Source of the DNA: Alphaproteobacteria bacterium | GTDB lineage: Bacteria; Pseudomonadota; Alphaproteobacteria; CAAHEQ01; UBA3637 | Reading direction: 5' to 3' | Assembly: GCA_017960645.1 (NCBI GenBank) | Contig: JAGCYU010000007.1 | Span: 1 to 41,056 of the forward strand | Length of the DNA: 41,056 nucleotides | In this document: piece by piece, positions 2,202 to 7,283 of the stretch | Position numbering within the stretch: position 1 is the stretch's first letter | How the letters are laid out: each line of letters opens with the position of its first letter | The notes under the pieces: generated by a model | Told to the model about the DNA's origin: nothing | Database searches by the model: none | What the model saw: the letters and a program-made list of their open reading frames with translations, nothing else | Translations under genes and position numbers: made by a program

Positions 2202-4073
2202 TTAAGCTACTTCTGGAACCGTATGGCGTGGTTTAAGTTTGCTGTTTTTGCCTTCTGTGTGGCGAATTTTTTTTCCTTTTAACAGGCCCTGAATTTCATC
2301 ACCAGACAAGGTTTCATATTGAATTAACCCCTTGGCTAATGTTTCCAGCTCATTACGATTTGTTTTTAAAATATCCTGCGTGCGTTTATAGGCGCGGTTG
2401 ATCAGCCCGGAAATTTCCTTATCCACCTGTAAAGCAGTATTGTCCGCCATATTTTTACGTTTTGCAATGCTGTAGCCCAAAAAGACATCACTTTCCGGTT
2501 CTTCAAAGGCAATAGGGCCCAATGAGCTCATTCCCCATTCGGATACCATTTTGCGAGCGATAGTTGTGGCAACCTGAATATCGTTACTGGCGCCTGTTGA
2601 TACTTTTTCTTTACCAAAAATCATTTCTTCTGCCACACGGCCAGCAAACAAAATGCTTAAGCGTGAGAGCAGATAGGTTTTGCTTTGTGAATACTTATCT
2701 TTTTCAGGTAACTGCATCGTGACCCCCAAAGCACGTCCGCGAGGGATAATTGTTACTTTGTGCAACGGGTCAGATTCGGGTAAATGCAATGATACAATAG
2801 CATGTCCTGCTTCATGATAAGCCGTCATTTTCTTTTCATTTTCATCCATGATAAGGCTGCGGCGTTCTGCACCCATCATGACTTTGTCTTTGGCATCTTC
2901 AAATTCGGTCATAGTTACCATTGTTTTGTTGCGATGTGCCGCCAACAAGGCAGCTTCGTTGACCAAATTGGCTAAATCTGCACCGGAAAATCCCGGTGTC
3001 CCGCGTGCAATCACGTCCAACTGAACGTTTGGAGCCAAAGGCACTTTGCGCACATGAACTTTTAAAATAGCTTCGCGGCCTTTTAAATCTGGGTTGTTGA
3101 CAACAACTTGACGATCAAAACGTCCCGGCCGGAGCAGGGCAGGATCTAATACATCCGGACGGTTTGTTGCGGCGATTAAAATGATACCGCAGTTTGTTTC
3201 AAAACCATCCATTTCAACCAGCAATTGGTTTAAAGTTTGTTCGCGTTCGTCATTTCCTCCGCCAAGTCCAGCCCCACGATGGCGTCCGACAGCGTCAATT
3301 TCATCCATAAAGACAATACAAGGGGATGTTTTTTTCGCTTGTTCAAACATGTCACGCACACGGCTGGCACCGACGCCGACAAACATTTCAACAAAATCTG
3401 ATCCGGAAATGGAATAAAAGGGAACTTCTGCTTCGCCTGCAATAGCGCGTGCCAACAAGGTTTTACCTGTTCCGGGAGGGCCTACCAACAAAACGCCTTT
3501 TGGAATTTTACCGCCTAATCTTTGAAATTTTACAGGCGCCTTTAAAAATTCCACAATTTCTTGAAGCTCTTGTTTGGCCTCTTCAATACCAGCAACATCA
3601 TTAAAAGTAATTTTTTCTTTACCATTTAATAAACGGGCTCTGGATTTTCCAAAGCTTAAAGCCTTGCCGTTACTGGCTGCCATTTGGCGCATCATAATCA
3701 AGAAAAATCCCAAAAATAAAATCATTGGTAACCATGAAATTAAGCCCGCGATAAAATTGTTTTCTTCTGTTTCTTCTGGGACAACAGTCATGGCAACTTG
3801 GTGTTCTTCCAACAAGGGAATTAAGTTTGCATCATTGGGAATATAGGTTGTAAATTTAGTGCTATTTTTTAATTGTCCTTCCAGATTCTGACCTTGTAGT
3901 TTTATTTGAGTGACCTCATCTTGGCGTACTTGGTTTAAAAATTCAGAATAGGATAGTTCTTGCTTGCTTTTTTCAGTTGTAGGTTCCTGAGAGACGGCTG
4001 CGAAAAAAAACAAAACAAGCAACATAATGCTCCAAATTAAAACGCCTCTGTTAACTTGCATCTTTTTTTTCAT
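2202..4073 (-). CDS. ftsH: ATP-dependent zinc metalloprotease FtsH
   Basis: A 623-residue membrane-bound AAA+ protease that forms hexamers and degrades misassembled membrane proteins and short-lived regulators. Two membrane segments (about 10-27 and 109-128) flank a periplasmic domain. The AAA domain carries Walker A GPPGTGKT (198-205), Walker [10 protein letters not shown] (about 253-261) and the second region of homology [20 protein letters not shown]. The zinc site HEAGH is at 420-424. Length is near the family norm. It starts 3 bases after the tilS stop with GGGGAG upstream, so it is translated as the last gene of the ruv-tol-pal-tilS block. The tilS-ftsH pairing is common in proteobacteria. 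Confidence 0.98.
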
Positions 4074-4076
4074 GAG

Positions 4077-5327
4077 TTAATCTCCCCTTTTTGACCATAC
4101 CAAATAAACAATAGATTTATGGTTTTTATAATCTAAATTAAAAGATTTTTCAAGTTCTTTTTGTGTTTTTTCTTGAGAATTGATAAAACACATAGGAATA
4201 TTGAGGCCAGCCCAAGGGAATGTGCGCTGGATTAAATAGGGAATTTTCTTGACTCTTGGTTTCGGTGCTTGATGTTGCAGAGTGCAGGGAATTGTGCTAA
4301 ATACCAAATAATCCCCCCAATGAGCCCATTGCATGGCTGACAACTTAATAGCAGAGGGTAAATATTTAGGTTCTAATGCAATAAAAATGCTGTCTTTTTT
4401 AATCACCCATTGACACAGGTTTAAGGTTGCATATTTTGGGATTTCTTTTGCAATTTTTTCAATGCTTTTCAACGAGATATTTTTTTCTTTACAAGTAAAA
4501 CTTGAAAGTAAATTTTCTATAATTCTAACTTTTAATTCTAAAGGTAATTGATTAAAATGAGACAGAGAAATTTCTAAGTAATTTTCAGGGAAAAAAATGA
4601 CATGGTTTTTGATAAATTGGTGCATATAAAAGTCTAGAGCGGCATCTGCACGAGTCAAACGTTGGATGCTATTGCCAATAATTTCAGGTGTTAAGCCCAT
4701 TTCATTCAGTTTAGGTTGGAACAAACGCCACCGTACACGTTCAAAAGAAGGATCGTAGTTCATAGAATCTTCAAACCAAGGAATGTGCTTTTTTCGTAAA
4801 GTTTCCACAATGTTTTTTTTGGAAGTTGTTAAAAGGGGACGCAAAATTTTAACGCCGTTTTGCATGCTTTGAAAACGCATGGATGCAAGGCCTTTTAGGC
4901 CGCTGGAACGGGTTAAACGCAAAAAAAATGTTTCTGCTTGATCCTCTTGATGATGGGCAAGACACAAGGCATCTGCTTGCTGTTCTTTGCAAAAATCACA
5001 TAAGAGTTGATAACGTTTTACTCTGGCTTTTTCTTCAATTCTGGTTTTGGGTTTATCGCCAGCCCATACCAAAATTTCATGTAAGATAGCGTGGCGTGAC
5101 AAAAATTGGTGAACTGCTTCGGCTTCCTTGGCAGATCCCGGACGCAAGGCATGATCTACGGTGACGGCCAATAGCTTGCCCGAATGTTTTTTAATCCATT
5201 CATTTAAAATTAACGTCAAGTATAAACTGTCCGCACCACCAGATACACCCACAACAAGCGTGGGATGAACAGGCAAATTGGCCTCTGCCATCAAAGAATC
5301 AAATGCATTATTGATTACGAAGGACAT
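4077..5327 (-). CDS. tilS: tRNA(Ile)-lysidine synthase TilS
   Basis: A 416-residue cytoplasmic enzyme that converts C34 of tRNA-Ile(CAU) to lysidine using ATP and lysine, so that the tRNA reads AUA. The N-type PP-loop is visible near the start as VVGVSGGADSLYLTL, followed by LAVTVDHALRPGS and ALCLAHHQEDQAETFFLRL, both typical of TilS. I chose the ATG at 5327 (MSFVINNAFD); an upstream in-frame ATG at 5408 would add 27 residues buried in cpoB. The gene overlaps the cpoB 3' end by 13 bases and has only a weak purine-rich ribosome site, so coupling to cpoB translation is likely (inference). Confidence 0.95.
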   Translation of the reverse strand: MSFVINNAFDSLMAEANLPVHPTLVVGVSGGADSLYLTLILNEWIKKHSGKLLAVTVDHALRPGSAKEAEAVHQFLSRHAILHEILVWAGDKPKTRIEEKARVKRYQLLCDFCKEQQADALCLAHHQEDQAETFFLRLTRSSGLKGLASMRFQSMQNGVKILRPLLTTSKKNIVETLRKKHIPWFEDSMNYDPSFERVRWRLFQPKLNEMGLTPEIIGNSIQRLTRADAALDFYMHQFIKNHVIFFPENYLEISLSHFNQLPLELKVRIIENLLSSFTCKEKNISLKSIEKIAKEIPKYATLNLCQWVIKKDSIFIALEPKYLPSAIKLSAMQWAHWGDYLVFSTIPCTLQHQAPKPRVKKIPYLIQRTFPWAGLNIPMCFINSQEKTQKELEKSFNLDYKNHKSIVYLVWSKRGD

Positions 5328-6046
5328 TTTAATTTTTTCATTTCTTCCTGAGCTCGCTGTTTTAAGGTGGCATCTGCTTTTGGATACTCGGCAATTAAAC
5401 CTTTCCAAGCAGAGCAGGCGGCTTCTGTATTGTTTAAGCCCTTCATGCTAAGACCCATTTTAAATAAGGCGTCCGGTGCTTTATTAGAATCTTTATGTTG
5501 AGCAAAAACGTCTGCAAAAAAGCCAACAGCATTTTCATATTGTTCTTGGGTATAATATGTTTCGCCTAACCAATAAAGCGCATTAGGTAAAAGATTGGAT
5601 TTGGGAAAATCCTTTGTAAATTCGGTTAAAAGTTTTTGCGCTTCCGAATAATCACCTTTTTTAATGTAATCATAGGCAAAATCATAGCGTTCTTTATCAG
5701 AGGATTTATCAATGACGATGGGCTTGGCTGGTTCTGCCACAGGTTTGTTTTCTAATTCTTTCAAACGAAACGTTATATCTTGATTGGCAGTTTCCATTTT
5801 TTTCGTCAGCTGTGTAATTTGAAATTCCATTTGTTCCAGTTTGCTGGTTAAATCTTGAATAGCTGTGTTTTGGTTGTCAATCATGACATAAAGGTCATTA
5901 AGCGTTTGTTGTGATTGAGAAAGAGATTTAACTTCTTCAGTTGCGGGTGCAGCAGGGGCTTCCAACGGAAGTTCTTGAAGGATAACCGTATCTTGGGCCA
6001 TGGCAGGCAATGCACAACATAGCAACATAAGCAGATATTTTTTCAT
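5315..6046 (-). CDS. cpoB: Cell division coordinator CpoB (YbgF), Tol-Pal associated
   Basis: A 243-residue periplasmic protein. The N-terminus MKKYLLMLLCCALPAMAQD is a Sec signal peptide with an AMA cleavage site. A coiled-coil stretch (about 40-100, LNDLYVMIDNQNTAIQDL and following heptads) drives trimerisation in the family. The C-terminal half holds tetratricopeptide repeats (YDFAYDYIKKGDYSEAQKLL, NALYWLGETYYTQEQYENAV, ALFKMGLSMKGL). CpoB links Tol-Pal constriction to peptidoglycan synthesis. Its Shine-Dalgarno AAGGAGG (6053-6059) lies 6 bases from the ATG and inside a potential hairpin. A terminator and a promoter sit between pal and this gene, so it may be transcribed partly on its own. 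Confidence 0.93.
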   Translation of the reverse strand: MKKYLLMLLCCALPAMAQDTVILQELPLEAPAAPATEEVKSLSQSQQTLNDLYVMIDNQNTAIQDLTSKLEQMEFQITQLTKKMETANQDITFRLKELENKPVAEPAKPIVIDKSSDKERYDFAYDYIKKGDYSEAQKLLTEFTKDFPKSNLLPNALYWLGETYYTQEQYENAVGFFADVFAQHKDSNKAPDALFKMGLSMKGLNNTEAACSAWKGLIAEYPKADATLKQRAQEEMKKLKCPS

Positions 6047-6051
6047 TTTTA

Positions 6052-6094
6052 TCCTCCTTGTATAAAAAACCTCCCTTGATTATACAAGGAAGGA
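6052..6094 (-). promoter_or_regulatory. Hairpin that can mask the cpoB ribosome binding site
   Basis: Positions 6080-6094 and 6052-6065 are complementary over 14 base pairs with one bulged base (perfect core of 10: TTATACAAGG against CCTTGTATAA), loop 6066-6079. The 3' arm contains the cpoB Shine-Dalgarno AAGGAGG at 6053-6059. The structure can form only in RNA reading through from pal and competes with the terminator at 6064-6093. Confidence 0.5.
6064..6093 (-). terminator. Intrinsic terminator after pal
   Basis: On the minus strand CCTTCCTTG (6093-6085), loop TATAAT (6084-6079) and CAAGGGAGG (6078-6070) form a nine-pair stem with one G-U pair, followed at once by TTTTTT (6069-6064). This is a textbook Rho-independent terminator for the tol-pal transcript, 30 bases past the pal stop. 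Confidence 0.75.
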
Positions 6095-6107
6095 AAAATT
6101 TTTACAA
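6079..6107 (-). promoter_or_regulatory. Predicted cpoB promoter inside the terminator
   Basis: TTGTAA (6107-6102), exactly 17 bases, then a perfect TATAAT (6084-6079) that is also the loop of the terminator. Predicted start near 6072, so the transcript lacks the 5' arm of the masking hairpin and leaves the cpoB Shine-Dalgarno free. Confidence 0.5.
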
Positions 6108-6122
6108 GTCTTTTTAAAATTT

Positions 6123-6617
6123 TTAATAAGCAACAGTTGTTGCACTTCTGTTTTTAGCCCATGCTTCTTCATCAGAGCCCAAAACAACAGGTTTATCTTT
6201 GCCATAGGAAATTGTCCGAATACGGTTCGCTGCAACGCCCAATGTCATAAGATAACTGCGAGCAGCATTGGCACGTCTTTCGCCAAGCGCCAAATTATAT
6301 TCACGTGTTCCGCGTTCATCGCATCTGCCTTCAATAACAATTAAGGCGCGAGGATTCGCGTTCAACCAATCGGCTTGAGCGGTCAATTCTGCCTTTGCTT
6401 GTGCATCTAAACTATAGCCGTTAAATGAAAAGTAGATAACATCATTGCCAGTCTTTTGAAATTCTTTAGTCAACGCAGTCGGCTGTAGATCCATGATGTT
6501 TACAGAATCGTTCCAACCTCCGTTAGCATCCCCATATACATCCATAGCAGATTCTTGGGTTGAAGAACATGCAACCAACAATAATGCAGTCCCTGCGGCA
6601 GCTAATAATCTTTTCAT
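6123..6617 (-). CDS. pal: Peptidoglycan-associated lipoprotein Pal
   Basis: A 164-residue outer-membrane lipoprotein. The signal peptide ends in the lipobox LLVAC with acylated Cys17. The C-terminal OmpA-like domain (about 55-164) binds the diaminopimelate of peptidoglycan and TolB; its hallmarks are VIEGRCDERGTREYNLALGE, RRANAARSYL and the C-terminal SATTVAY. It starts with a strong purine-rich site (GGGGGAG) 18 bases after the stop of the unknown lipoprotein and is followed by an intrinsic terminator. It lies after tolB, as in the conserved Tol-Pal order except for the inserted lipoprotein gene. Confidence 0.97.
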   Translation of the reverse strand: MKRLLAAAGTALLLVACSSTQESAMDVYGDANGGWNDSVNIMDLQPTALTKEFQKTGNDVIYFSFNGYSLDAQAKAELTAQADWLNANPRALIVIEGRCDERGTREYNLALGERRANAARSYLMTLGVAANRIRTISYGKDKPVVLGSDEEAWAKNRSATTVAY

Positions 6618-6635: not shown

Positions 6636-7238
6636 TTATTTATTATAACACTGAGGACACGGATCGTTTGGATCCTCACATGGACACTTCGGTTCAGGAG
6701 CTGGAGCGGGCTTGTTTTCCTGATACTCTTTCCACCATGTCCGTGGTTGTGGTTCAGGTTGTGGAGCTGGTGCAGGTGCAACTTCTTGCTCCACAACAAT
6801 AACTTCTGGAGGTGGAGGATTTAAAGGCATTTCCGTTGTAGTAATAACAGCTTCTTGTGGTTGATAGCTTTTTTCACAAACAGTTTCGACGGACGTGCTG
6901 TGTGCTTCTACAGTAGGTGCAGCCCACAAACGTTGTGGCTGAGGCTCAACAATTGCTTGTAACACAGGGGTTCCTGCGTGATATCTTGGCCCTGTAACGG
7001 CCAAAGGCTGACCATTATCCAACTCTGCAGGAATGTAGGTTTGTGGTTGGCGCATATAGTATGTATTCAAAATACAATTGCGATATGCATCATGATCACG
7101 TGCAAATGTACATCCCGTAGTTTGCTGACGTTCATTTAACTTTTCTTGTCTTTGTGCCGCTTGGGCGTCCAAATCTGTGTCATGGGCAACACATGCTGAT
7201 AATAATAAAGATCCCATAATAACTAATGTTTTTTTCAT
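6636..7238 (-). CDS. Unrecognised Pro-rich, Cys-tailed lipoprotein in the tol-pal block
   Basis: A 200-residue predicted lipoprotein with no family I recognise. I chose the ATG at 7238 because AAGGAG precedes it and the product begins with a lipoprotein signal (MKKTLVIMGSLLLSAC, lipid Cys16). Further features are a Q/E-rich segment after the anchor, a Cys pair in CTFARDHDAYRNC (43 and 55), a lone C121, a long Pro/Ala/Glu-rich stretch (about 139-184), and a short tail with C185, C187, C194 and C197 (CPCEDPNDPCPQC). The Pro-rich part could span the periplasm; the tail could form disulfides or bind metal (both inference). It lies between tolB and pal and has its own predicted promoter, so a role tied to Tol-Pal or the outer membrane is plausible. 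Confidence 0.8.
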   Translation of the reverse strand: MKKTLVIMGSLLLSACVAHDTDLDAQAAQRQEKLNERQQTTGCTFARDHDAYRNCILNTYYMRQPQTYIPAELDNGQPLAVTGPRYHAGTPVLQAIVEPQPQRLWAAPTVEAHSTSVETVCEKSYQPQEAVITTTEMPLNPPPPEVIVVEQEVAPAPAPQPEPQPRTWWKEYQENKPAPAPEPKCPCEDPNDPCPQCYNK

Positions 7239-7283
7239 GTTTTCTCCTTGCAAGAACAGGGTTTTCTTCATCCCCTGGGTTTC

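Follow-up and report, generated by a model that had tools for sequence, protein, structure and literature searches.

A promoter-like sequence nested in the pal terminator at the boundary of cpoB-tilS-ftsH in a family of Alphaproteobacteria

The tol-pal operon of E. coli ends with cpoB (PMC7391070). In the 41,056-nucleotide stretch of DNA analysed here (the window), which comes from an alphaproteobacterial genome of 1.14 Mb in 32 contigs, cpoB lies directly 3′ of pal and the signals of an intrinsic terminator stand between the two genes. The ORF list, Pfam matches and sequence motifs give the minus-strand gene order ybgC-tolQ-tolR-tolA-tolB-orf211-pal, then cpoB-tilS-ftsH. The product of orf211, in the tolB-pal gap (6636-7271, minus strand), is a proline-rich protein of 211 aa with a lipoprotein-like start, for which a Pfam search returned no match. 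Elsewhere in the window, the leucyl-tRNA synthetase gene carries an in-frame TAA (28505-28503, minus strand), either a sequencing error or a real stop, which leaves two ORFs in the same frame (28913-28503 and 28490-26415).

Terminator and promoter signals in the pal-cpoB gap

The signals between pal and the cpoB start codon (ATG at 6046) are listed in Table 1. The arms CCTTCCTTG and CAAGGGAGG form a stable GC-containing hairpin of nine pairs, one of them G-U, with a U-tract directly after it, as in an intrinsic terminator. Its predicted fold of -13.5 kcal/mol (z = -2.2) was equalled by 4 of 200 shuffled sequences. The hairpin loop and the hexamer upstream of it together resemble a sigma-70-type promoter, with 10 of 12 hexamer matches at a spacing of 17, from which the cpoB transcript is predicted to start near 6072, within the 3′ arm of the terminator. 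The initial annotation had described a terminator after pal with the loop TATAAT and TTGTAA 17 nt upstream, and all of these positions hold to the base. Since a promoter scan of 12 kb gave 37 sites against 27 expected, a promoter-like match is weak evidence in one genome alone. It is the comparative data, rather than the single sequence, that argue for an overlap of terminator and promoter beyond chance.

Table 1. Features of the pal-cpoB junction and neighbouring genes, in window coordinates and in the order of transcription.
Feature	Position	Strand	Basis and remarks
pal (peptidoglycan-associated lipoprotein)	6123..6617	-	last gene of ybgC-...-pal; Pfam OmpA family, E 2.6e-21
pal stop codon	6125-6123	-	sequence
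A-tract, UP-like, just 5′ of the -35	6111..6115	-	A at four of its columns in 27-29 of 29 genomes
-35 hexamer TTGTAA	6107-6102	-	17-nt spacer to the -10; promoter scan
Terminator stem, 5′ arm CCTTCCTTG	6093-6085	-	also within the promoter spacer; covaries with the 3′ arm across genera
-10 hexamer TATAAT = terminator loop	6084-6079	-	sequence, family alignment
Terminator stem, 3′ arm CAAGGGAGG	6078-6070	-	also discriminator and start region of the predicted cpoB transcript
U-tract TTTTTT	6069-6064	-	terminator; also about +4 to +9 of the predicted cpoB transcript; T-rich in relatives
Stretch able to pair with 6093-6080	6053..6065	-	proposed anti-Shine-Dalgarno helix, unsupported as a switch; pairing drawn
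cpoB Shine-Dalgarno AAGGAGG	6059-6053	-	sequence
cpoB (YbgF)	5315..6046	-	signal peptide, coiled coil, TPR repeats; Pfam TPR_6, E 7.9e-17, YfiO; directly 3′ of pal
tilS	4077..5327	-	overlaps the end of cpoB; Pfam ATP_bind_3, E 6.5e-51; cpoB adjacency kept in relatives
ftsH	2202..4073	-	3 nt past tilS; family recognised by AAA and HEAGH motifs; adjacency kept in relatives

The overlap among relatives and at other terminators

We located cpoB in a family sample of 43 genomes, from uncultured and mostly gut-type alphaproteobacteria, and extracted the pal-cpoB junctions. The CpoB proteins of these relatives are only about 30-53% identical to that of the window, and neutral intergenic sequence should therefore be saturated. 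In 31 of the genomes pal stands directly before cpoB, and a scan found a terminator in 29 of these 31 junctions. Nesting was scored when a -10-like hexamer lay no more than 3 nt from the loop centre and a -35 starting with TT lay 16-18 nt upstream; 28 of the 29 junctions with a scan-detected terminator passed this loose test, and 24 passed a stricter one. The hairpin of one further junction (G016, L024) was missed by the scan and is nested when judged by eye, by an anchored alignment and by its arm-duplex energy (-20.9 kcal/mol). In G027 (L032), terminator and promoter are both present but separate, and in G029 a short pal-cpoB gap holds neither signal, so nesting is not indispensable. As the 43 genomes share ancestry, these counts are not independent events, and the argument for nesting is carried by the turnover of the stem and by the genomes in which pal and cpoB are unlinked.

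The anchored alignment shows a fixed pattern, TTG-16/17-TAnnnT, in which the -10 occupies the middle of the loop (its centre no more than 2 nt from the loop centre in the sites scored). The -10 begins with TA at every one of the 29 family sites, a purine stands 8 nt past the -10 in all 29, and one T of the -35 is invariant across them. The -35 reads TTG in most relatives and, more weakly, TTT or TTC in the genera g2, g6 and g8, at 16-17 nt from the -10, and is preceded by the A-tract, with six A in most relatives. The distance to pal varies between 28 and 50 nt while the hexamer spacing stays fixed. In a sister family, whose Pal is 47% identical, the element is nested in both genomes (2/2). 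A more distant alphaproteobacterium (G068) has a pal terminator loop with TTGATA-16-TATGAT (L121, about 2007-2030), and cpoB does not directly adjoin it.

The stem arms diverge widely among relatives (CCTTCCTTG, CCCCTGATG, CTCTTCCTTG, GCTTTGTC and others). In an arm-permutation test, which does not model the tree, duplexes of an arm with its own partner had a mean energy of -18.4 kcal/mol compared to -9.3 kcal/mol for permuted arms, and when each genus was represented by one genome, the observed pairing was reached by none of 20,000 permutations. By this comparison, the terminator stem is a real RNA structure, and its arms have changed together several times.

Where pal is not followed by cpoB, the terminator is kept and its loop is without the promoter in all seven cases (Fisher p 1e-6 versus adjacent junctions). 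Conversely, where cpoB lies away from pal (L026-L031, L034), reading the upstream regions by eye revealed promoter-like sites, for example TTGACA or CTTGCA followed at 17 nt by a -10, but no terminator. Judged by these unlinked genomes, the hairpin belongs to pal and the hexamers belong to cpoB.

For a base rate, 778 kb of family stretches were sampled, in which 158 intergenic terminators were found. When the two pal-cpoB sites are excluded, 7 of 156 (about 4%) are nested by the loose test, one of them at a tRNA-Val gene, and 3 of 156 by the strict test; of 23 pal terminators taken from other alphaproteobacteria, 3 passed the loose test. More often in the family, a promoter-like site follows the terminator, with its -10 about 40-60 nt past the loop. 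In view of these low base rates, nesting is not imposed by compaction and does not simply result from AT-rich loops, and general compaction was rejected as its cause since the majority of the other terminators in these genomes lack nesting. Possible nested sites also precede a rhodanese-domain gene (L222, about 1150-1205; G033:C68) and a TPR_21/DUF2659 gene (L223, about 1255-1310; G024:C62).

The element was also searched for over the family with a sequence-only model, which carried no structure because the automatic alignment gave no consensus pairs. The pal-cpoB sites ranked first, followed mainly by sites of ordinary promoters, and a dispersed repeat was rejected on account of these other matches. 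The layout of A-tract, CTTG, 17 nt and TATAAT occurs before other genes of the family as well, two of the sites preceding apparent tRNA genes, and the embedded promoter thus looks like the family's ordinary promoter.

The match before tRNA-Val(TAC), first seen in the base-rate scan at L228:5640-5680, led to a family-wide follow-up. Among the loci upstream of tRNA-Val(TAC) (L245-L274), those with hup (HU protein) on the upstream side (e.g., L246) show a TTGACA-17-TAnnnn promoter whose -10 is enclosed by a hairpin with a T-run, only nucleotides from the tRNA. By folding, 15 of 19 hup-adjacent sites are nested, compared to 1 of 11 others (Fisher p 4e-4), a figure that is descriptive since we fixed both the nesting criterion and the HU motif once the sequences had been seen. 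Of the four hup-adjacent sites scored negative, L255 forms the hairpin but has only four T, and others have an apparently separate terminator. In the window genome, tRNA-Val(TAC) lacks both an upstream hup and a proper terminator. As judged by these folds, the family repeats the nested terminator-promoter design at hup/tRNA-Val.

Downstream, the gene after cpoB is tilS at every junction where the locus extends far enough to show it, including genomes whose cpoB is no longer next to pal, and ftsH comes next after tilS wherever the locus is long enough (the neighbours in G005 and G034 are limited by contig ends). Because this order is kept, we regard the element as the boundary between the tol-pal and cpoB-tilS-ftsH operons, and the nested promoter very probably serves cpoB-tilS-ftsH and not cpoB alone.

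Possible roles of the nested element

We consider it highly likely that a terminator and a promoter, nested at the boundary of the two operons, provide insulation together with independent expression. The initial annotation had proposed a pal terminator with an embedded cpoB promoter that uncouples cpoB from Tol-Pal, and the comparison (nesting, covariation and unlinked cases) supports this. Polymerases arriving from tolQRAB-pal would form the CCTTCCTTG/CAAGGGAGG hairpin and halt at the U-tract, while a sigma-70-type holoenzyme would independently bind TTGTAA-17-TATAAT, with its -10 in the hairpin loop, and initiate at about 6072, within the 3′ arm. The resulting RNA would escape the terminator because the 5′ arm is missing from it, and transcription would then run on into cpoB-tilS-ftsH. 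About 45 bp would thus both insulate the downstream operon from tol-pal and supply its own promoter, although much of the tolQRAB-pal transcription could even so read through the terminator. We infer termination and initiation at the nested element, and the positions of both, from sequence comparison. The boundary appears to be an interlocked off/on signal, which was kept over long evolution while the hairpin sequence was rewritten.

The overlap may itself be without regulatory value. The two signals could have been superimposed by chance in a compact genome and then become fixed, as neither could be moved without harming the other, a history to which we give slightly less than an even chance. 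It requires no selection for overlap and suits the small genomes of about 1.1-1.6 Mb; G027 shows that the signals can be separate, and in alphaproteobacterial outgroups the pal terminator is followed, by eye, by a promoter-like sequence. However, compaction alone fails to explain nesting, given the many unnested terminators of the same genomes and the recurrence of the design at hup/tRNA-Val.

Alternatively, the overlap could couple the two operons if a polymerase that releases the pal RNA stays on the DNA and reinitiates at the promoter beneath, so that the output of cpoB-tilS-ftsH follows tol-pal termination. E. coli RNA polymerase is retained, diffuses and reinitiates in vitro after intrinsic termination (PMC6978380, PMC6978322), 85% of E. 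coli terminators lie no more than 1 kb from a start site, and reinitiation, for which an in vivo demonstration is still lacking, is said to favour the closest promoter (PMC11347151), the distance from terminator to promoter being about zero here. We nevertheless think such coupling improbable, since cpoB manages without nesting in G027 and in the genomes where it is separated from pal, and the general tandem arrangement, in which the promoter follows the loop at about 40-60 nt, would do almost the same; we rate lock-in without regulatory value as no less probable. An extended form would make the element a device that recurs across the family, at least at pal/cpoB and hup/tRNA-Val, with a just-terminated polymerase reinitiating beneath and one operon's termination feeding the next one's initiation. 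For U-runs early in a transcript, slippage during initiation is known at other promoters, and the U-run borrowed from the terminator (about +4 to +9) might add a UTP-sensitive slippage to this device, which as a whole we put forward as a conjecture unlikely to hold.

The initial annotation had further proposed a switch, in which the terminator 5′ arm hides the cpoB Shine-Dalgarno (SD) in read-through RNA, whereas RNA from the internal promoter is free of this masking. The pairing can be drawn as it claimed, as a helix of 13 pairs with one bulge between CCTTCCTTGTATAA (6093-6080) and TTATACAAGGAGG (6065-6053), and the arm-SD duplex of the window genome (-18.1 kcal/mol) is in the lowest 0.2% of mismatched pairs. 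In read-through RNA, however, the fold constrained to the anti-SD helix reaches -22.0 kcal/mol against -24.7 kcal/mol for the terminator fold, 2.7 kcal/mol worse at equilibrium, and the predicted fold pairs the SD flank partly with the -35 region and not with the terminator arm. Folding with and without the upstream arm leaves the predicted SD accessibility unchanged between read-through and internal-start RNA (0.32 and 0.35 in the window genome, family means 0.36 and 0.40). The terminator stem covaries, but the anti-SD helix is not conserved: the long pairing was sought in the relatives and is peculiar to the window genome, the family mean of the arm-SD duplex is -9.2 kcal/mol for own and -7.8 kcal/mol for mismatched pairs, and the strong-looking values at L013 and L014 are artefacts of SD positions mis-assigned inside the hairpin. 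The switch was rejected on energy, accessibility and conservation, and we hold it to be very improbable.

That the loop, the best conserved part of the hairpin, is a structural or protein-binding, tetraloop-like RNA motif and not a promoter is scarcely credible, as the 16-17 nt to the TTG outside the hairpin are fixed while stem and pal distance vary, the hexamer is lost from the loops of pal terminators without cpoB after them, and promoter-like sites persist upstream of cpoB in genomes without the hairpin there.

Significance and relation to known systems

Promoters and terminators are usually regarded as distinct elements. In the nested element, one hairpin appears to be held by two codes at once, its stem changing in a compensatory manner while the -10 in its loop stays fixed, and the design spans two alphaproteobacterial families and, in one of them, two unrelated operon boundaries. 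The element would be a natural and very short insulator-plus-promoter part, as well as a ready test site for the in vivo reinitiation by recycled polymerase that is undemonstrated according to PMC11347151. Standard annotation, which reads pal-cpoB as one operon, can put tilS and ftsH under the wrong promoter. A search of open-access text with exact phrases, which is weak evidence of absence, found no described natural case of a -10 conserved as a terminator loop.

An RNA element is already described at the same pal-cpoB junction, the CpoB_ybgF_thermometer of Rfam (RF02782). It was rejected as an identity for the nested element, since the window scores 21.9 bits against a gathering cut-off of 51; the best score among the sampled relatives is 36.3 bits, and in a relative the match covers the end of pal and extends no further than the -35, leaving out the hairpin.

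Like other intrinsic (Rho-independent) terminators, the pal element has a GC-rich stem, a short loop and a U-tract and lies directly after the last gene of an operon, but its loop is the candidate -10 of the next operon and is under a constraint of its own. The usual tandem boundary of a terminator and then a promoter has the same two signals in the same functional order; at pal/cpoB, by contrast, the bases are shared, with the spacer as 5′ arm, the -10 as loop and the start region as 3′ arm. In E. coli frd/ampC, ampC is transcribed from a promoter located upstream, within frdD, and the terminator of frd is the attenuator in the ampC leader. There, too, the terminator of one operon overlaps the control region of the next, whereas at pal/cpoB the predicted start site is inside the hairpin, so that the new RNA would escape it. 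The systems of termination, recycling and reinitiation (PMC6978380, PMC6978322, PMC11347151) share with pal/cpoB a promoter close to a terminator and differ from it in that here the -10 is the terminator loop and is conserved. Terminators and promoters are both long known, and it is common for the two to be adjacent.
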